Of a stretch of 50,570 nt of DNA, positions 18,723 to 30,153 are shown in pieces. The stretch's first letter is position 1, and each line of letters opens with the position of its first letter. The stretch comes from Acidobacteriota bacterium (GTDB lineage Bacteria; Acidobacteriota; Thermoanaerobaculia; Multivoradales; JBCCEF01), in contig JBCCHV010000047.1 of the NCBI GenBank assembly GCA_039028635.1, positions 1-50,570 of the forward strand. Reading direction: 5' to 3'. The position numbers and the translations under genes were made by a program. The notes under the pieces are model-generated. The model saw only the letters and a program-made list of their open reading frames with translations. It searched no databases and was not told where the DNA came from.

Positions 18723-18904
18723 TAACCCGTCCTTCTCACGAGCTTTCCGCTGCGAGTCCGTAGGTCCCCGAATCTGCTGCGTTATCCGTCGCCTGCTCTC
18801 CTCGCAGTACGTCGAGTACGGCTGCGTCGTGGCAGCGACGGATGCCTTGCATCTTCAAGAACCTACGGCCTCTCGCGAGGAAACCTCGTGAGAAGGCCGG
18901 GCTA
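18723..18904 (+). repeat. Palindromic intergenic repeat, copy 1
   Basis: An imperfect inverted repeat of ~182 bases. The outer arms are 18723-18742 and 18885-18904 (18 of 20 positions complementary). Inside, a second inverted repeat pairs 18759-18797 with 18833-18868 imperfectly, so the RNA or single strand would form a long hairpin. The inner sequence shares clear blocks with 48232-48411 in the opposite orientation, for example CGGATGCCTTGCATCTTCAA at 18839-18858. The right arm supplies the TAG stop of the downstream minus-strand porin gene. No coding content was found. Confidence 0.85.
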
Positions 18905-20302
18905 GAAACGCGCCACGGCCGAAAGGGAGACGGTGGTCACCGGGTCGGCGTGGTCGACGGCGAGGTCGATCTGTGCTCGACCGAAGACGATGCCGGCGCC
19001 GGCGGTGAGGTGTAGCTCGTCGTCGCCGGCGCGGAAGCGGGCGGCGAGCAGCGCTTCGTCGCCGACGTAGCGCAGGCGATGATCCGGGTCCCACCAAAGG
19101 CCGGCGCGCAGCGCCACCGGAAAGCGGGGCTCGAGGAGCTGAATCTCGGTGCCGAGATGGAGCTGGTGGGCATCATCGATGACGAAGTCGTTCTCGGCGC
19201 CGATCGCTGCGCGCAAGAGGTTGAGCAAGCCGTCGCTCAGGGACGAATAGCGGATCCAGTCGTAGTCGGCGGTGATCAGCCACTGATCGGTGGCGTGGAG
19301 GGCGACGCCGAGGGCGGCGACGTCCGGAACTCGGAAGGTGCCCTGGCCACCGACGGTCGGGTCGACGCGCCCCGGAGCTTCGCCCGCCGGACCTTCGACG
19401 AACTCGGCACGAAAATCGAAGCTCGGCCCCTGGCGGTAGGCGCCGCCAAGGCTCCAGCGACTGTCGAGGCGCCACAGGAAGCCGGCCTGGAAGACCAGGT
19501 CGTCGTCGCTGCCGCGCTGTAGCTGGCGATTGAAGACGTTTTCGGGGGAGAAGTCCGCCGGACCGTAGAACTGCCCGGTGAGGCCGTCCTGCAGCAGATC
19601 TCCGGTGGGCTCGGCGCGGCGGAATCGCTCGGTCGTGGAGTCGAGGTCGAGGTGGTAGCTGGCGAGGCCGAAGCCAACGGAGAAGTCATCCCTCAGGCGA
19701 TAGGCGCCGGCGGCGCCGATACCGGCGATGTCGAGGTCGAGGGACGAACGCACCGGAAAGGTGCGGAAGGGCGCGCTGCGTGGTCCGACGAACAGGCCCT
19801 GGGACGTGAGGGAGCTGCGGAAGCGGGTCAGCTGATGGCCGTAGATGGCCACCGCCCAGCGCTTGGCTGCAGGGTTGTCGGGCCGGTTGCCGGGGGAGGT
19901 GCCGGGGTAGGTGAAGGAGGCGAAGGCCAGCCCCGCGGCGCGATTGCGCTCCTCGCCGCGCTGCAAGCCGTCGACGACGTCGATGCCGATGCCGGTGAGG
20001 GCGGTTTCGGGAACGTGTCCGCGTTCCGCGAACTGGCTGCGGAAGGTGCCGTGGCGAGCTTCGATGGCGACCTCCGGCTCCACCAACTGGGTGAGCCCGG
20101 CCGGATTGCTGTAGGCGGCGGTGGCGTCATCGGCCAGGGCGACGAAGGCTCCGCCGAGGGCGAGGCTGCGGGCGCCCGGAGGGAAGAGATCGAACTGGGT
20201 TGCGGTCTGGATCTCGTCGTTGCTCTGGGCGTGGGCGAACGGGGCCGAGGTCAGGAGGGCGAGAATCAGGAGGGTCGCTCGACGGGGTGCATCGGTAGCC
20301 AA
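18902..20302 (-). CDS. Outer-membrane beta-barrel protein (FadL/PorV-like)
   Basis: This encodes 466 residues from TTG 20302 with a GGAG-type site upstream; no in-frame ATG lies near. The signal peptide ends AHA-Q (~25). The mature start contains GARSLALGGAFVALADDATAAYSNPAGL, condensed here as the GGAFVAxADDxxAxxxNPAGL hallmark of FadL-like and PorV/PorQ outer-membrane proteins. Alternating amphipathic strands follow, and it ends with aromatic phenylalanine (VARF), as beta-barrel proteins do. The expected role is uptake of hydrophobic compounds or envelope assembly; the substrate is not predictable. Its stop codon is provided by the palindromic repeat. A second member of this superfamily is at 44816-46108. 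Confidence 0.82.
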   Translation of the reverse strand: MATDAPRRATLLILALLTSAPFAHAQSNDEIQTATQFDLFPPGARSLALGGAFVALADDATAAYSNPAGLTQLVEPEVAIEARHGTFRSQFAERGHVPETALTGIGIDVVDGLQRGEERNRAAGLAFASFTYPGTSPGNRPDNPAAKRWAVAIYGHQLTRFRSSLTSQGLFVGPRSAPFRTFPVRSSLDLDIAGIGAAGAYRLRDDFSVGFGLASYHLDLDSTTERFRRAEPTGDLLQDGLTGQFYGPADFSPENVFNRQLQRGSDDDLVFQAGFLWRLDSRWSLGGAYRQGPSFDFRAEFVEGPAGEAPGRVDPTVGGQGTFRVPDVAALGVALHATDQWLITADYDWIRYSSLSDGLLNLLRAAIGAENDFVIDDAHQLHLGTEIQLLEPRFPVALRAGLWWDPDHRLRYVGDEALLAARFRAGDDELHLTAGAGIVFGRAQIDLAVDHADPVTTVSLSAVARF

Positions 20303-23700: not shown

Positions 23701-25212
23701 TCAGCGGGCGTAGCGCCAGGCGGTGTAGAGGCTGCTGTTGTCCTCGAACTGGCCGAAGAAGGTGTGCGGCTCGGTGCCCAGGAAGAGGTTGCCGCCGAGC
23801 TCGAAGCGCCAGCGGTCGCCGAGGTCGAACTCGAGGCGCGGCCGCAGGTAGGCGTCTTCGTCGGTGGGGCTCCAAAAGGTGAACAGAGAGAGGCGAACGG
23901 TTTGCTGGCGCAGCCGTTGCGTGAGGCGCACGGTGACCAGCAGGCGGGTCTCGTCACGGGCGGGAACGCCGGCCGGCAGGGTGCGCCGATAGGCGTCGTG
24001 GTCGAGCAGCTGCTCGGCGTAGAGCTGCAGGCCGCCGGTGAGCTCACGGCCGAGCTCGAGCTCGTAGCCGGCGAGGGCGCGTAGCTCACCGTTGGCGACG
24101 GTCGGATCGCCGCCATCGGCATCGTCCCGCGAGTCGTACCAACCGGCCTCGAAGCTGGCGATGCCGCGGCCCCAGGGCCCGCGGGCGCTGGCACCCCAGA
24201 CGGCGAGGCGCGGAAAGGTGGCGCGGCCGCTGTTGGGATCGAATCCGGCGGGACTCTTCCAGAAACCCGAGTAGCCATAGAGAGCGACCTCCCAGGAACC
24301 GATGCCGTCGCTCAGCCGCAGGGCGATCTCGTCGTCCTGCCAGAGGTCGTCTGGTGGCGCGGTGCGCAGGCGCTGGTCCCGCCCTCGGCGGCTGCCGCTG
24401 GCGGGATCGAAGAAGCTCAGGCGTTCGCCGGTGATGAAACGGTCCGGGTCGAACTGCGGCGTGTAGACGATTTCGACGTTGCCGCGCTCGGTGAACCAGC
24501 CGAGGCGCAGGGCGTCGGAAGGCGCCTTGAGGTACTCGGTCTTGCGTCCGAGGAGGAAGGACTGCCAGTCCTTGGGAAAGAGGTCGTTGATGAACAGCAG
24601 GTCGCCGGTGCCCCAGGTGAGGATCTGACGCCCGACCTGGAGGTCGAGGGCGTCGCTCGCCCGCCAGGTCCAGCGCAACTGGCGCAGGTCGCTCTCGAGG
24701 CCGCTCTCGAGGCCATCCGCCAGCAGGTCGACGCGGGCCTCGAGGACATGCCGCGACCAGGCCTTCTCGGCCGCTAGCTGCAGGCGGGTCTCGAGGAGGG
24801 TGAGGTCGTCTCGCTGCGCCGGATCATTGTCGAGGCGCGAGCCATAGCGCGCTTCCCAGAGCAGCCGCACGCGATCCATCCAGTCGCCTTTGGAGGCGGG
24901 CGCCGGGGCCGGGCTCGGGTCTTCCCCGAGGCCGCTGGGCAGGGCCGGTTCGTCGCCCAGGCCGCCCGGCAAGGCCGGCTCCTGGCCGGCGCCGAGGCCG
25001 GCCGGCAGCTCCGGTTCCGTCGCCTCCTCGGGCTGGTCTCGAGGGCTCTCGCCGTCGGGGCCGGCGAGCCCAGGTGGCAGGGCCGGTTCTGCGGCGGATT
25101 CTGGGGCTGTGACTGGCGCCGGGGAATCCGCCGGGGTCGGTTCCGGGGGAGCCTCCTGGGCGGCGGCGCCGATGCTGCCCAGGAGCAGCAGAATCACGGC
25201 GAGCCGGCGCAT
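23701..25212 (-). CDS. Outer-membrane beta-barrel protein with N-terminal EPxLPxGL repeats, RND cluster
   Basis: This encodes 503 residues from ATG 25212 (two bases after the upstream gene's stop). The signal peptide is 1-19 (AAA-Q). Residues 20-108 form a Pro/Glu/Ala-rich, probably disordered segment with four related decapeptides at 42-51, 66-75, 78-87 and 88-97 (EPALPPGLAG, EPELPAGLGA, EPALPGGLGD, EPALPSGLGE). Residues ~110-503 are amphipathic strands typical of a beta-barrel, including QVGRQILTWGTGDLLFINDLFP, split here as VGRQILTWG and FINDLFP. It resembles DUF1302/alginate-porin-like proteins found beside MMPL exporters. Role: outer-membrane part of the export system (inference). The same decapeptide occurs in the RND protein at 26012-28654. 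Confidence 0.8.
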   Translation of the reverse strand: MRRLAVILLLLGSIGAAAQEAPPEPTPADSPAPVTAPESAAEPALPPGLAGPDGESPRDQPEEATEPELPAGLGAGQEPALPGGLGDEPALPSGLGEDPSPAPAPASKGDWMDRVRLLWEARYGSRLDNDPAQRDDLTLLETRLQLAAEKAWSRHVLEARVDLLADGLESGLESDLRQLRWTWRASDALDLQVGRQILTWGTGDLLFINDLFPKDWQSFLLGRKTEYLKAPSDALRLGWFTERGNVEIVYTPQFDPDRFITGERLSFFDPASGSRRGRDQRLRTAPPDDLWQDDEIALRLSDGIGSWEVALYGYSGFWKSPAGFDPNSGRATFPRLAVWGASARGPWGRGIASFEAGWYDSRDDADGGDPTVANGELRALAGYELELGRELTGGLQLYAEQLLDHDAYRRTLPAGVPARDETRLLVTVRLTQRLRQQTVRLSLFTFWSPTDEDAYLRPRLEFDLGDRWRFELGGNLFLGTEPHTFFGQFEDNSSLYTAWRYAR

Positions 25213-25214
25213 CG

Positions 25215-26015
25215 TCAGGGCAGGTGCTGGCGCGGTGGATTGCGCAGGTAGCGCTCCGAGAAGATCTCTTCGGGCAGGCCGAGGTCGTAGTCCACCTGCG
25301 AGTACTCGAGCACCGTGTGGCCACCGATGCGCTGGTCGCTCATCTTCATCTTGGTGACCGTCTTCTTGCCCTGGATGTCTTCCACGGCGAGCACTTTGAG
25401 GGTGCGGTAGACGTTGCCGTCCTGCTCGAACTTGATTTCCACCGGGATGAAGCTCGCCTTGTGGATCCACATGGTGAAGCGGTCGAACTCGACGGCTTTG
25501 GGGTCTTTGGGAGTGTTCTCGAGGACGTAGTAATTGGCCGTCGTCTCGATCAGCCGATGATGATCCTCGTCGATGCCGCGGCCGGAGACGTCCTCGTAAA
25601 AGAAGTGGGAGCCCACGAAGCTGGTGCGCTCGTCGGAGGCGGCGATGCGCTTCTGGACGTCGAGGGCCGGCAGGTAGAGCCAGCGGTCGTCGTCCTTGCC
25701 GAGGTGCTTCCACACCAGGAAGGTGACGCCGCGCTCATCGGCCGGCTGGTCGAAGTAGACGTAGAGCTTTTGGGCGCCGTCTTCGGAGCCTTGGTCGCGG
25801 CGCAGAATGGTGAAGTCCTTGCGGCGCACCCGGCCTTTGCCGTCGGTGATCGTCAGCGAAGCGACGGCGCGGCCGTCCTGACCCTGGTAGTAGGCGACAT
25901 GGTTGGTCTTCTCGACGATCTCGGCGAGGCTCGGCGTGGCTTCGTCGGCTGCCGCGGCGCCGGGCGCCCACAGGATGGCGAGGACGAGCAGAAGAGAGAA
26001 GGCGAATCGGGTCAT
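25215..26015 (-). CDS. Outer membrane lipoprotein-sorting-like periplasmic protein (LolA-like fold, PF17131 type)
   Basis: This encodes 266 residues. The signal peptide ends AAA-D (~23). The body is the curved beta-sheet fold of the LolA/LolB superfamily in the form that accompanies MMPL exporters: YYQGQDGRAVASLTITD, KDFTILRRDQG, YVYFDQPADERGVTFLVW, RWLYLPALDVQKRI, SFVGSHFFYEDV and IPVEIKFEQDGNVYRTL strands in order. The start overlaps the RND gene stop as ATGA; the beta-barrel gene begins two bases after the stop. It probably carries a hydrophobic cargo across the periplasm between the RND pump and the outer membrane (known for the family, inferred here). Confidence 0.88.
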   Translation of the reverse strand: MTRFAFSLLLVLAILWAPGAAAADEATPSLAEIVEKTNHVAYYQGQDGRAVASLTITDGKGRVRRKDFTILRRDQGSEDGAQKLYVYFDQPADERGVTFLVWKHLGKDDDRWLYLPALDVQKRIAASDERTSFVGSHFFYEDVSGRGIDEDHHRLIETTANYYVLENTPKDPKAVEFDRFTMWIHKASFIPVEIKFEQDGNVYRTLKVLAVEDIQGKKTVTKMKMSDQRIGGHTVLEYSQVDYDLGLPEEIFSERYLRNPPRQHLP

Positions 26016-28654
26016 TTCGAGGTCTCGCGGGCTGGGAAGAACCGTCCTTCGAAGGTGCCCAAGGCGGCCGGTAGCACCAGGAAGGTGGCGAAGCCGGAGA
26101 TGACCAGGATCATCGCCAGCAACACTCCGACCGTATTGTAGGGAATCAGCGGTGCCAGCAGCAGCGGCGTGAAGCCGGCGGCGATCACCACCACGTTGCG
26201 CGCGATGGCGCGGGCCGGCTCCTCGAAGACGTCGGCGGAGGTCTGGCGCCAGTTGCCGAAGCGTTGGTAGCTCGCCCGTGAACGGGTCAGGAAGTGGATG
26301 GCGAAGTCGACCGCCAGACCGAGCGCGAGGGCGGACAGTACCGCCACCGGCATGTCGTAGTCCTTGCCGATCCAGCCGATCAGGCCGTAGACCATGGCGA
26401 TGGTCAGGGTGAGGGGAATCATCGACAGCAGGCCCCAGAGCAGCGAGCGGAAGAACAGGGTCATCATCAAGAGGATGACCAGGAAGCTGCCCAGGAATGC
26501 CTTGAGCATGCCGAGGACCATCTTCTCCTGCCAGATGACGTTGATGTAGGTGAGACCGAACCAGTGGGCCTCGAGTCCTGCCGGCGGCGGATGGGCGGCG
26601 ACGTGGTCGGCCACTGCCTGGACCACCGCCGCCATGTCCTGGTTGTCGCCGCTCTTGAGCTGCACCCAGAGATTGGCGGCGCGGTAGTCGGGAGTGACGA
26701 AGTGCCACAGATCGCCGGGACGGTGACTGCTCTCGTACTGCACCAGGGTCTGGGCGACGGCGGCCGCCGAGTCGGGAATGCGCAGCTCCTCCGGCTGGCC
26801 TTGGTGCAGGTCGCGATGAACTGTCTTGACGATGTCCGCCAGGGAGTTCGATTTGCCGACGATGCCGGTGCCGAGGAGGGCCTGCTGCAGGTCTTCGAGG
26901 TAGGCCAGCGCTGTCGGGTCCTTGAAGGTCTCGTCGGAGGCGGCCGTCGCCACCGCTGCGACGGGTTCGGCGGTGGCCTCGGGGCTGCCACCGAGGCCCG
27001 CGGGCAGCTCCGGCTCGCCTGCGCTGGTGTCGGCCCCGCCGAGGCCCGCCGGCAGGCTTGGCTCGGTGGCATCGACTGGGGCGTCACCCGGGGCGATATC
27101 AGGTTCGGTGTCTGGTTCGGCGACTGGTTCGGCGACTGGGGCACCTTGCGGAGGGGCCGCGACGCCCTCGGCCGGAGTGAGCGCCAGGTAGGCGGTGTAG
27201 GTGCCCGCGAAGTGCTCGTTGAGGACGCGGTCCGATTGCCGAATCTCGTGCGCCGCGCGGAACCAGCGAATCGGATTGTCGTTGACCTCGATGCGCTGAA
27301 TTCCCCAGGCGGAGAGCAGGCCGAGGCCGAGGGTGGCGACCAGAATGGCGGCCGAGCGCCGTTGGGCGAACCGGCCCAGCGCCAGGATGGCGCGGCCGAC
27401 GCGGGTCGAGTCGCCCAGGGGGCGACGGTCGCGGCTGCGGGCGGCGGCTCCGAAGCGCTCCAAGGCCGAGGCCGGCATCAACAGGATGTAGGCCGGTACC
27501 AGGGTGATGGTCATCAGCCAGGCGAGCAAGATGCCAATGGCGACGAAGATGCCGAATACCCGCACCGGGGGAATCGGCGTCAGGGCGAGGGAGGCAAAGC
27601 CCGCTGCCGAGGTCAGGGAGGTGGAGAGCATGGGGCGGGCGAGGCCGGCCATCACCTCGCCGAGGATTTGCCGGCGGTCGCCGTCACGGCGATAGCGATC
27701 GAAGAACTCGGAGAGGATGTGAACCGCGTCGAGGACGGCGATCGGCATCACGAAAATCGGGATCATCGAGCTCATGATGTGGATCACCTGGCCGCTGGCG
27801 ATGAGCAGGGCCATGGTGCACATGACCGCCAGCATCGCCACCAACAAGGGCGAGGCGATCAGCCTGAGCTGGCGGAAGAAGAACCACATCAGGAGGAAGA
27901 TGACCAGCATCGCCAAGGGGGCCGAGATCGCCATCTGGATGAACATCTCGACGCCGAAGGTGTCCTCCGCCACCGGCAGGCCGGTGACGAAGAACTGGTC
28001 GTTGCCGTCGAAGCTCGCGATGCGCTCCTGGAGGCGGCGATAGACCTGGTAGCTGAGCTCCTTCGAGGTCAGCGGGAGGTAGAGACCGAGGGCCTTGCCA
28101 TCGCCTGAAACCAAGGTGTTCTGCAGGAAGGGAACGCGCTGCGCCCGGCGGCGGATCTCGGCGGCCTCGGCATCGTCCGCCGGTGGCTCTGCCATCAGCC
28201 ACTCGAAGCGCAGGGTGCCGGGGCCAATGGGCTCGATGGCGTCGACCGTCGACGGCGCGATCAGGTCGACCTCGACCACGCCGGCGCGCGGGTCGGTCTG
28301 GCCGATGGCCTCGCCACGGAGCGTCTTGGCGAACTCCGTCAGCTCCCAGACGCGGCCCAAGGATGCGGCGTTGAAAACGCCTTGGGGGTGGCTCTCGTTG
28401 ACCACCCCCACCACCACCAGATCGTGCAGATCGAAGGCCTCTTTCATCTGGCGATGGAAGATCCGCACCGGCTCGTCGGCTTGCAGCATGTTCTCGGGGT
28501 TGGTGTCGACCCGAACGCCGTGGAGCGGCGAGAAGCGCTCCGGCCAGAGGGAAGGCAGGAGCGCGATCAGCACCAGGACGGCGGTGAGCAGGAGCCAGCT
28601 GGCGAGGGTGGTCTTGGGCCGCTCCATGGCGGAACGGGAGGCTGCGAGGCTCAT
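26012..28654 (-). CDS. RND/MMPL-family transporter with periplasmic EPxLPxGL repeats
   Basis: This encodes 880 residues from ATG 28654, with GGAG 7 bases upstream. The two-fold RND layout is seen: TM1 ~16-38, a large periplasmic loop, five helices (including MLVIFLLMWFFFRQLRLI and MSSMIPIFVMPIAVLDAVHI), then TM7, a second periplasmic loop and five more helices with the repeated pattern LGLAVDFAIHFLTR. The fold is that of MMPL/HpnN-type lipid or hydrophobic-compound exporters. Loop 2 has a ~70-residue low-complexity Pro/Ala/Glu insertion with EPSLPAGLGG (531-540) and EPELPAGLGG (547-556). It is first in a tight three-gene operon with the LolA-like and beta-barrel genes. The cargo is unknown. 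Confidence 0.9.
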   Translation of the reverse strand: MSLAASRSAMERPKTTLASWLLLTAVLVLIALLPSLWPERFSPLHGVRVDTNPENMLQADEPVRIFHRQMKEAFDLHDLVVVGVVNESHPQGVFNAASLGRVWELTEFAKTLRGEAIGQTDPRAGVVEVDLIAPSTVDAIEPIGPGTLRFEWLMAEPPADDAEAAEIRRRAQRVPFLQNTLVSGDGKALGLYLPLTSKELSYQVYRRLQERIASFDGNDQFFVTGLPVAEDTFGVEMFIQMAISAPLAMLVIFLLMWFFFRQLRLIASPLLVAMLAVMCTMALLIASGQVIHIMSSMIPIFVMPIAVLDAVHILSEFFDRYRRDGDRRQILGEVMAGLARPMLSTSLTSAAGFASLALTPIPPVRVFGIFVAIGILLAWLMTITLVPAYILLMPASALERFGAAARSRDRRPLGDSTRVGRAILALGRFAQRRSAAILVATLGLGLLSAWGIQRIEVNDNPIRWFRAAHEIRQSDRVLNEHFAGTYTAYLALTPAEGVAAPPQGAPVAEPVAEPDTEPDIAPGDAPVDATEPSLPAGLGGADTSAGEPELPAGLGGSPEATAEPVAAVATAASDETFKDPTALAYLEDLQQALLGTGIVGKSNSLADIVKTVHRDLHQGQPEELRIPDSAAAVAQTLVQYESSHRPGDLWHFVTPDYRAANLWVQLKSGDNQDMAAVVQAVADHVAAHPPPAGLEAHWFGLTYINVIWQEKMVLGMLKAFLGSFLVILLMMTLFFRSLLWGLLSMIPLTLTIAMVYGLIGWIGKDYDMPVAVLSALALGLAVDFAIHFLTRSRASYQRFGNWRQTSADVFEEPARAIARNVVVIAAGFTPLLLAPLIPYNTVGVLLAMILVISGFATFLVLPAALGTFEGRFFPARETSK

Positions 28655-28998
28655 CGAGATTCTCCGGAGGTGACGGAATGATCGCCGAGAGGCGACCGCC
28701 TTCGGCATACTAGCCCGATCTTGTCACCAGTCTTCGGCGATGGGGTGAAACCACGGCCTCTTTCAATCCCCTCGCCGCGCCCCGGGGGAGAATTCGGGGC
28801 TCCCCTGGAATCGTCGTTCATCCTCTGAAAGGCTTGACTTCGACGCCACAATTTGCGACCGTTCTGCGATTACTAGAATCTCTTGTTGGATTTCTGTGTG
28901 CAGAATTTGCCATGAGTTTTTTCTGGCAGGCGAACGAGAAGGGGCCGGCCCAGGTTTCGGGCCAGGGCTCGTAACGAACCCGAGACGTGGGAGGAAAT
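28655..28998. promoter_or_regulatory. Divergent intergenic region between RND operon and IPTL-CTERM gene
   Basis: This 344-base stretch has no supportable gene. It must contain the promoters of the RND operon (minus) and of the surface-protein gene (plus). The stretch 28830-28920 is visibly AT-richer. A TTGACT hexamer at 28834-28839 has no matching -10 at normal spacing. A short imperfect stem (GGGCTCGTAACGAACCC, about 28963-28982) sits just before the ribosome site of the next gene. Confidence 0.4.
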
Positions 28999-30153
28999 GT
29001 GAACAAGGATAGAACCCGAATTCTGGGACAGGTTGCCGTCGTTTTGGCTGTTGCCGCGCTGATGGCTGCTCCGATTTTGGCGCAGGACGCCAGCAAGCTC
29101 ACCCATGACGGCGCGATCGTGCCGAGCCCGCTGGGTGGTCCGGCGTGCACTGGCTTCAGTGATTACGAACAGCCGATCGACACCGCCAACTTCAACACCG
29201 CGCGGACCTCGGACGTCGAGGCCGCCTTCCTGACCTCCGAGGCCTTTGTCAGCGGCTCGACCATCACGGCCCTCACCGAGGGTGTGGCCGAGGGCGTTCG
29301 CTTCTGGGGCATCTCGGCTGAGTTCAACGCCGGCTTCCTCGGTCCCTGCACCGACGACGACACGGCCAACACGCCGTTCAACATCATCTTTTCGGAAGAC
29401 AACGCCGGCACGCCGGGCGCCGTCATCGCATCGGTGGTGGGAACTCCGGCGTCGATCACCAACACCGGCATTCCCTTCGCCTTCACCACCATCTTCGAGT
29501 GGGACGTGACGATTCCGCCGACGGACGTCACCGATGCCGCCTGGATCGGCATTCAGCGCCAGACCGGCGCCAGCACGCCGGGTGGTAACCAGTGTCTCTT
29601 CCTGTGGCTCGACGAGATCAACAACGCCACCTACGACAACACCGCCGATCAGAACGCGGCTCCGGTGCCTTCGGACCACGTCTTCTGCCTGAACGCGCCG
29701 GTGCCGCCGATGGAGGCCGATCTCGCCATCACGAAGACCGGTGAGGTCTTCGGCAACCAGATCGTCTACACCGTCACGGTGACCAACAACGGTCCTGCCG
29801 ATGCGGTCAACGTGGTGGTGACGGACATGCTGCCGGCCGAGGTGACCTACGTCAGCGACGACTGCGGCGCCCTCGACGTGCCGCCGTGGACCTGGAATGT
29901 CGGTCCTCTCGCCAACGGCGCTTCGGCGATGTGCAACATCACCGTCGACATCAATCCGGGCACCACCGGCGACGTCATGAACACCGCCATGGTGACCGCC
30001 GACAACGCCGATCCGCTGACCGCCGACAACTCGTCGACGGCGATCGTCGGGGTTGGCTCGGTGCTCGAGATTCCGACCCTCGGCACCTGGGGCTTGCTGC
30101 TCCTGCTGGTGGCCCTGGGCGGTGCTGGTCTCTACATCGTTCGCCGCGGCTAG
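28999..30153 (+). CDS. Surface protein with DUF11-like domain and IPTL-CTERM sorting signal
   Basis: This encodes 384 residues from GTG 28999, chosen for the GGAGGAA ribosome site at 28989-28995. The signal peptide ends ILA-Q (~28). Residues ~30-235 form an unassigned beta-rich domain. Residues ~238-350 form a DUF11-like Ig domain (ADLAITKTGE, YTVTVTNNGPADAVNVVVTD). The C-terminus has IPTLGTWG (358-365), a hydrophobic helix (LLLLLVALGGAGLYIV) and a final RRG. This is the IPTL-CTERM signal, known to pair with exosortase H. No exosortase gene is in this window. It is expected at the cell surface or in exopolysaccharide after processing; the molecular role is unknown. Confidence 0.92.
   Translation: MNKDRTRILGQVAVVLAVAALMAAPILAQDASKLTHDGAIVPSPLGGPACTGFSDYEQPIDTANFNTARTSDVEAAFLTSEAFVSGSTITALTEGVAEGVRFWGISAEFNAGFLGPCTDDDTANTPFNIIFSEDNAGTPGAVIASVVGTPASITNTGIPFAFTTIFEWDVTIPPTDVTDAAWIGIQRQTGASTPGGNQCLFLWLDEINNATYDNTADQNAAPVPSDHVFCLNAPVPPMEADLAITKTGEVFGNQIVYTVTVTNNGPADAVNVVVTDMLPAEVTYVSDDCGALDVPPWTWNVGPLANGASAMCNITVDINPGTTGDVMNTAMVTADNADPLTADNSSTAIVGVGSVLEIPTLGTWGLLLLLVALGGAGLYIVRRG

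Follow-up and report, generated by a model that had tools for sequence, protein, structure and literature searches.

A short peptide with the core P-x-L-P-x-G-L is repeated both in the N-terminal tail of an outer-membrane beta-barrel protein and in a periplasmic loop of the RND pump encoded beside it, and comparison with relatives from many phyla shows PxLPxGL to be a real, specific and widely conserved linear motif. Widespread as it is on the tail of the outer-membrane protein, the motif stands at both ends of the system only as a local elaboration, and it co-varies, through few independent events, with residues of the third protein of the operon, a LolA-like periplasmic carrier. The reading that we favour, to which we give a probability of roughly 0.6, is that PxLPxGL would serve as a multivalent docking tail for this carrier in an export route running from RND pump to barrel.

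The operon and its six motif copies

The window, by which we mean the whole stretch of 50,570 nucleotides of Acidobacteriota DNA that was analysed, encodes three genes back to back on its minus strand, in the order RND/MMPL, LolA-like, barrel protein (Table 1). The start codon of the LolA-like gene (26015) overlaps the stop of the RND gene, and 2 bases separate the LolA-like stop from the barrel ATG (25212), so that the tight operon described in the earlier note is borne out, and translation confirmed all six motif copies where that note had placed them, four in the barrel N-terminus and two in RND loop 2. A 12-mer peptide for the motif is EEPALPAGLGGE. Around the operon, the window also holds a FadL/TodX-like outer-membrane protein for hydrophobic compounds (18902-20302, minus strand, about 3.4 kb downstream) and a divergent DUF11-domain protein (28987-30153, plus strand).

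The transporter matches PF03176 (MMPL) with an E-value of 8.4e-32 (110.8 bits against a cut-off of 20.5), which together with its RND fold places it in the MMPL/RND superfamily; its best NCBIfam match is TIGR00921 (HAE3), at an E-value of 1.6e-45 and with 155.4 bits below the cut-off of 351.9. The AlphaFold model has a pLDDT of 87.4 and a pTM of 0.86, with residues 517-575, which include both motif copies, below a pLDDT of 50, and the nearest solved folds are those of MmpL4/MmpL5 (Foldseek, MmpL4 9gi0, E 8.1e-23), followed by NPC1-type proteins, MmpL3 and HpnN. For the carrier, PF17131 (LolA_like) is the only Pfam family above cut-off, which leaves it outside the canonical LolA family, and the Pfam scan gave no DUF1329 match; its model (pLDDT 91.6) finds P. 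gingivalis LolA3 (9tp6) as the best Foldseek hit, with canonical LolA structures ranking below the LolA3, DUF1329, 3bk5 and NE2245 folds. The barrel protein has no Pfam family above cut-off, its DUF1302 match (E 0.0058) reaching 16.1 bits against a cut-off of 23.2, and two barrel proteins scanned against NCBIfam matched no family.

Table 1. Positions of the operon's genes, motif copies and carrier codons in the window
Feature	Position	Strand	Basis or remark
RND/MMPL transporter	26012..28654	-	Pfam MMPL and AlphaFold fold; alternative upstream ATG at 28708
LolA-like periplasmic carrier	25215..26015	-	Pfam LolA_like PF17131, 4.6e-54; AlphaFold, Foldseek
Outer-membrane beta-barrel protein, weak DUF1302 likeness	23701..25212	-	DUF1302 below cut-off; partner in homologous operons
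Disordered segment inserted in periplasmic loop 2 of the RND (residues 512-594, numbering from the ATG at 28708)	26927..27175	-	96-RND alignment, pLDDT
RND motif copy 1, EPSLPAGL	27041..27064	-	translation
RND motif copy 2, EPELPAGL	26993..27016	-	translation
Periplasmic tail at the barrel protein's N-terminus, holding the motif array	24883..25158 (ends approximate)	-	translation, relatives
Barrel-tail motif copy 1, EPALPPGL	25066..25089	-	translation
Barrel-tail motif copy 2, EPELPAGL	24994..25017	-	translation
Barrel-tail motif copy 3, EPALPGGL	24958..24981	-	translation
Barrel-tail motif copy 4, EPALPSGL	24928..24951	-	translation
Codon of carrier Tyr162	25530..25532	-	changed with His185 in both motif losses
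Codon of carrier His185	25461..25463	-	His follows the motif
Codon of carrier residue 239, which is Ser in the window	25299..25301	-	Lys/Arg in most acidic-Trp relatives

The four copies in the barrel tail compare with a shuffled mean of 0.004 (for the 100 residues that end near residue 136) and the two in the RND insert with one of 0.00075, and in neither case did any of 20,000 shuffles reach the observed number. Across the 6.28-Mb genome the EPxLPxGL DNA pattern has 9 matches against 13 for its backwards control; six of the nine are the operon copies, there is no second cluster, and the other three, which we judged by eye to be chance, each stand alone in a frame (531, 377 and 121 residues). 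In 13 further genomes, where the same pattern gave 40 matches (ten of them without a locus and judged by position, the E-first pattern missing A-first copies), clusters of two or more occur only in this operon and the single matches elsewhere lie mostly in short or doubtful frames. Genome-wide low complexity, an explanation that the earlier note had itself raised against its proposal, was consequently rejected, as no match clusters occur elsewhere in this genome or the 13 others. Recent DNA duplication between the barrel and RND genes was rejected as well, because in the five core codons 31 of the 75 pairwise comparisons among the six copies differ, all of them synonymously.

The motif in homologous operons

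Of 72 genomes of the order that were searched, 11 have an RND match at an E-value of 1e-30 or better, and three operons of the same order (L025, L026 and L027), with all three genes and RNDs 44-50% identical, lack the motif in the barrel protein as well as in the RND. In the phylum, 15 of 396 genomes searched have the barrel protein at 1e-15 or better; apart from the window's own operon, that of L056, from another class, is the only one among them to carry the motif in both proteins, and it is absent from the rest. An RND-profile scan of 84,980 species genomes supplied the best 80 loci, drawn from many phyla, and these together with the window and the order and phylum loci make up a first set of 97 loci, in which 96 RND inserts and 81 barrel tails are readable.

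In this first set, with its best 80 loci of the global scan, 39 of the 81 tails carry the motif, 2 carry the core LPxGL alone and 40 carry neither, a further 16 being missing or cut. In those 39 tails P-x-[LM]-P-x-G-[LMI] is matched 111 times, against a mean of 0.1 and a maximum of 1 in shuffled tails of the same composition (again counting the best 80 listed), and Leu fills the two variable core positions in 109 and 107 of the 111, P, P and G being fixed by the pattern itself. In 75 copies the first P is preceded by E or A (E in 57/111, A in 18/111), and 63 of 72 gaps between tail copies span 10 to 20 residues. PxLPxGL has in fact what one looks for in a linear motif, namely a recurrent core in disordered segments (disorder being modelled for the RND copies only), restriction to one system and co-variation with a partner, and it behaves as a conserved linear motif, which supports that part of the earlier note's proposal. 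No paper on such a tail motif was found by title or abstract among the open-access papers listed, and the one text match for LPxGL, PxLPxGL and EPxLPxGL was unrelated.

Might the tail be no more than a flexible, proline-rich spacer lacking a specific partner, with repeats spread by slippage and by exchange between neighbouring genes? Tail length and copy number (1 to 7) are indeed variable, and the linkers between copies look low-complexity, as such a spacer would have it, but the excess of copies over shuffled tails, the purely synonymous differences between core codons in the window and the loss of the motif together with carrier residues, described below, make this very improbable indeed. 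Quite unlikely, too, is the recruitment of a general periplasmic or outer-membrane partner from outside the operon, such as an assembly factor, a chaperone or a peptidoglycan-linked protein. Like sorting signals, the first tail copy stands at the apparent mature N-terminus in many relatives (by eye; in the window it lies about 20 residues further in), but no match clusters are found outside the operon in 14 genomes with the E-first pattern, and a general partner leaves unexplained why carrier residues 185 and 239 follow the type of tail.

The RND half of the picture is different. Only 5 of the 96 RNDs of the first set (best 80 listed) have the motif, namely those of the window, L056, L069, L072 and L082, four of them beside a motif tail and one (L082) with its tail unseen, and in the 96-RND alignment the motif insert stands where most relatives have an insert of about 90 residues. 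In the same set, with the same best 80, long inserts of about 70-110 residues without the motif, apparently helical by their sequence, account for 80 of the 96 and are accompanied by 35 motif tails, 2 core tails, 29 tails without the motif and 14 unseen, and inserts of about 6 residues or none account for 11. We regard the sharing at both ends as a local elaboration precisely because the RND copies are this rare and the tail motif is widespread; a tree reconstruction of the RND copies is compatible with one or two gains. Since most RNDs lack the motif, docking at both ends is not needed for the system. The earlier proposal of a motif common to both ends, recruiting one partner such as the LolA-like protein to each, thus divides in two: L056 and a few others do share the motif, but its absence from one partner in homologous operons, which that proposal had counted against itself, is what we find for the RND half, the 35 motif-tail operons with another long insert included, and it is the barrel half, where carrier residues 185 and 162 follow the motif, that gains support from sequence comparison.

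Some decisions on scoring define the counts given here and below. L085, L087 and L240, which show the core LPxGL only, were scored among the motif-bearing operons of the full comparison; the fragments L056, L061 and L062 were excluded from the large RND trees and the RND column ranks; L068, a barrel fragment only, was dropped; and 15 operons whose barrel tail lies outside the contig (14 with long inserts, and L082) were left uncounted. A fusion of carrier and tail was sought in the 97 loci and none was found.

The wider searches brought up further variants of the system. In distant relatives the RND and the LolA-like carrier share one open frame of 1058-1110 residues (L217:4881-8072, L218:4989-8162, L219:4726-7998 and L220:2758-6087; domains checked for L217), and none of these four fusions has the motif. 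The RND of this family in L119 (6131-9865), a gammaproteobacterial record, has an N-terminal cytoplasmic extension with two cyclic-nucleotide-binding stretches, and that of L125 (4222-8016), a close relative by tree, has an extension that looks like it, so that these extended pumps may be gated by cyclic nucleotides. The contigs of L125 and L131 are labelled Halobacteria and Thermoplasmatales and yet carry this outer-membrane system, probably through binning errors.

Carrier residues that follow the tail

When 39 motif operons were compared with 29 motif-less long-insert operons, carrier column 185 was the sole full separator among carrier and RND columns, with His beside the motif and Asp or Arg without it. 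Outside this discovery set the rule held in 2/2 core-only, 11/11 short-insert and 8/8 L209-L216 operons, and then in 21 of 22 new operons, obtained from searches of 369, 289 and 294 genomes as 30 loci minus one without a barrel (L227) and seven duplicates with carriers identical to earlier ones, while a few near-relatives of earlier loci were retained. The exception, L232, has Glu185 and keeps one motif copy; L241 was scored motif-less by hand despite an LPFGL string at the start of the barrel, and the opposite scoring would make it a second exception. With the 22 added to the 47 motif-less and the motif-bearing operons that preceded them, His185 is present in 56 of the 57 operons that have the motif and in 0 of the 54 that lack it, an agreement of 110/111. 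A ranking of 1412 columns (761 RND, 392 barrel and 259 carrier) gave complete agreement only for carrier 185 (89/89), followed by carrier 238 (83/89) and RND 717 (80/86).

The 110/111 agreement comes mostly from one tree branch and is not a series of independent trials. On the tree of RND and carrier together, motif and His185 share three changes, one gain and two losses, for which a sign test gives a p of 0.25 and, with three pairs, cannot reach significance; on the carrier-only tree the motif changes 3 times and the His 4 times, with one pair on well-supported branches. That most of the agreement comes from one branch speaks for pure shared ancestry, with motif, His185 and other features as unlinked marks of one clade; we nevertheless think that explanation unlikely. 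The two losses of the motif inside the motif clade, in L098 and L124, are better evidence than the 110/111 count: carrier 185 and 162 changed in both, carrier 238 changed in L098 only, and the RND marker columns mostly stayed, keeping the motif-clade letter at 7/7 in L098 and 5/7 in L124. In length-weighted draws, two losses of the motif and two of the His coincide on the same two branches with a chance of 0.0007; the column had been chosen after inspection, out of 3 carrier and 7 RND marker columns, and columns 185, 162 and 239 were indeed all picked in that way.

A second kind of tail bears on the same question. An acidic stretch with Trp is present in the barrel tails of L025, L026, L060, L124, L210-L216, L231, L233 and L234, many of which form one clade, and carrier column 239 was noticed on these 14 hand-picked tails before a fixed rule (a Trp having four or more D/E no further than five residues away) was run on all 111. 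By this rule 17 of the 111 tails qualify, and Lys/Arg239 is found in 14 of these 17 against 5 of the 94 others; with a threshold of three the counts are 15/21 and 4/90, and with five they are 13/15 and 6/96. L079, L098 and L214 follow the rule with no Lys/Arg239, and five tails have Lys/Arg239 outside it. Shared ancestry is further opposed by L124, which is nested in the motif clade and has an acidic-Trp tail with Arg239, and by the hybrid tails of L224 and L226, where PxLPxGL copies and an acidic-Trp stretch go with carriers that have both His185 and Arg239.

The same evidence can be turned on the idea that the RND itself, by its periplasmic porter domain or long loop-2 insert, is the docking site of the barrel tail, which would so bridge the membranes, the carrier residues being only clade markers. 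Short or absent RND inserts never go with a motif tail (11/11 in the first set, best 80 listed), and the 80/86 agreement of RND residue 717, also numbered 722, points the same way. On the other side, no RND marker changed in both motif losses as carrier 185 and 162 did, of 66 readable long-insert operons 29 have a tail that lacks the motif (first set, best 80 listed), and a motif-bearing RND leaves its own motif undocked in the single-chain AlphaFold model, which is weak evidence in that four motif-bearing RNDs were among the 66 aligned. On balance we find docking on the RND rather unlikely.

In the predicted structure of the carrier, residue 185 ends the strand 179-185 beside a hairpin. The equivalent position is R, R, D and N in the four solved relatives, as read by eye from an alignment, and a rough test of whether carrier residues 162, 185, 192, 206, 225 and 238 form one row across the sheet gave 0.053 with an assumed strand register, a value that we do not take as proof.

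A proposed route, its cargo and known systems

How HAE3-type RND pumps without a membrane-fusion protein pass hydrophobic cargo outward is, to our knowledge, unsettled. In the mechanism that we propose, the RND pump would hand hydrophobic cargo to the LolA-like carrier, which would ferry it across the envelope to the outer-membrane barrel, and the PxLPxGL array on the disordered periplasmic tail of the barrel would capture the carrier at several sites, through a docking surface that may include Tyr162 and His185. In the lineage of the window the long loop-2 insert of the RND appears to have been swapped for one to three copies of the barrel's peptide; because the pump there bears the same peptide as the barrel, the two might compete for one carrier, or hand it over. 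Binding, direction of transport, cargo and hand-over are all things that we infer. A docking peptide on the barrel tail, together with the candidate contact residues 162, 185 and 239 of the carrier, would render the carrier model testable by single-residue swaps, and the motif in addition allows such barrel proteins to be recognised from their sequence.

The genes around homologous operons may say something of the cargo. Recurrent neighbours are ArsR regulators, SQR-like flavoproteins, DUF302 proteins, YgaP-like membrane segments, CoA-disulfide reductase with rhodanese, and OsmC; for the one ArsR scanned, the nearest model by E-value was BigR and for the two SQR-like flavoproteins type III SQR, both below cut-off. 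Within 1.5 kb of the operon there are 61 such genes and further out 5, or 25.4 against about 1.0 per 100 kb (97 loci, best 80 listed), for families that were chosen because they recur at these loci. Leaving ArsR and thioredoxin aside, 37 of 105 loci have genes of this kind, and the window has none. Sulfur-type neighbours are about equally frequent with the motif (16/42) and without it (16/47), and they bear therefore on the cargo and not on the motif. Gene context of this sort suggests sulfide or persulfide stress as one setting of the operon. A more ambitious version of our reading, about which we are more doubtful than hopeful, is that of a code between tail and carrier: PxLPxGL would pair with His185/Tyr162, acidic-Trp tails with Lys/Arg239 and hybrids with both, one lineage's pump would have adopted the barrel's peptide so that both fish for the same carrier, and the cargo might be a hydrophobic product of sulfide detoxification, for example sulfane sulfur.

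The nearest characterised system is AmeABCD of Castellaniella defragrans, for which export of apolar monoterpenes was proposed from a deletion mutant (PMC6394551). It brings together an HAE3-type RND pump, a periplasmic protein of the LolA superfamily (DUF1329) and a DUF1302 outer-membrane protein, but differs in having a fourth protein, AmeC (COG4447), and the reverse gene order, and the part of its description that is accessible does not mention a tail motif (PMC6394551). Our barrel protein resembles its DUF1302 protein by a match below cut-off only, and our carrier belongs to the LolA superfamily as PF17131 rather than DUF1329, the DUF1329 structure 4z48 being at Foldseek rank 2. An AmeC-like second periplasmic protein was found neither in the window cassette nor in the 22 neighbour clusters listed nor in the 25 of 74 families listed (91 neighbours). 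In Thalassolituus oleivorans, TOL_3187, with MMPL and LolA-like domains, is raised 42-fold on n-C28 alkane, and the gene after it encodes TOL_3188, porin-like and with no conserved domains in the account available, which is detected only on that alkane (PMC6304351). As described there, TOL_3187 fuses the two parts, like our distant fusions L217-L220, whereas the window has separate genes (PMC6304351).

The Lol pathway (LolCDE-LolA-LolB) offers a likeness of carrier fold and of ferrying from inner to outer membrane, and the fold-search list of the carrier does include LolA with LolC, LolCDE and LolB (6f3z, 7arm and 8orn). P. gingivalis LolA3, the best fold match, bound LolB only very weakly, to go by the available part of that report (PMC13103446). 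The Lol pathway differs in its pump, which is an ABC protein and not an RND, and in its receptor, which is a lipoprotein and not a barrel. The TonB box, finally, by which a periplasmic partner recognises TonB-dependent outer-membrane barrels, is a short docking sequence close to their mature N-terminus. The PxLPxGL tail differs from it in sequence, in having several tandem copies and in its proposed partner, which would be a soluble carrier.
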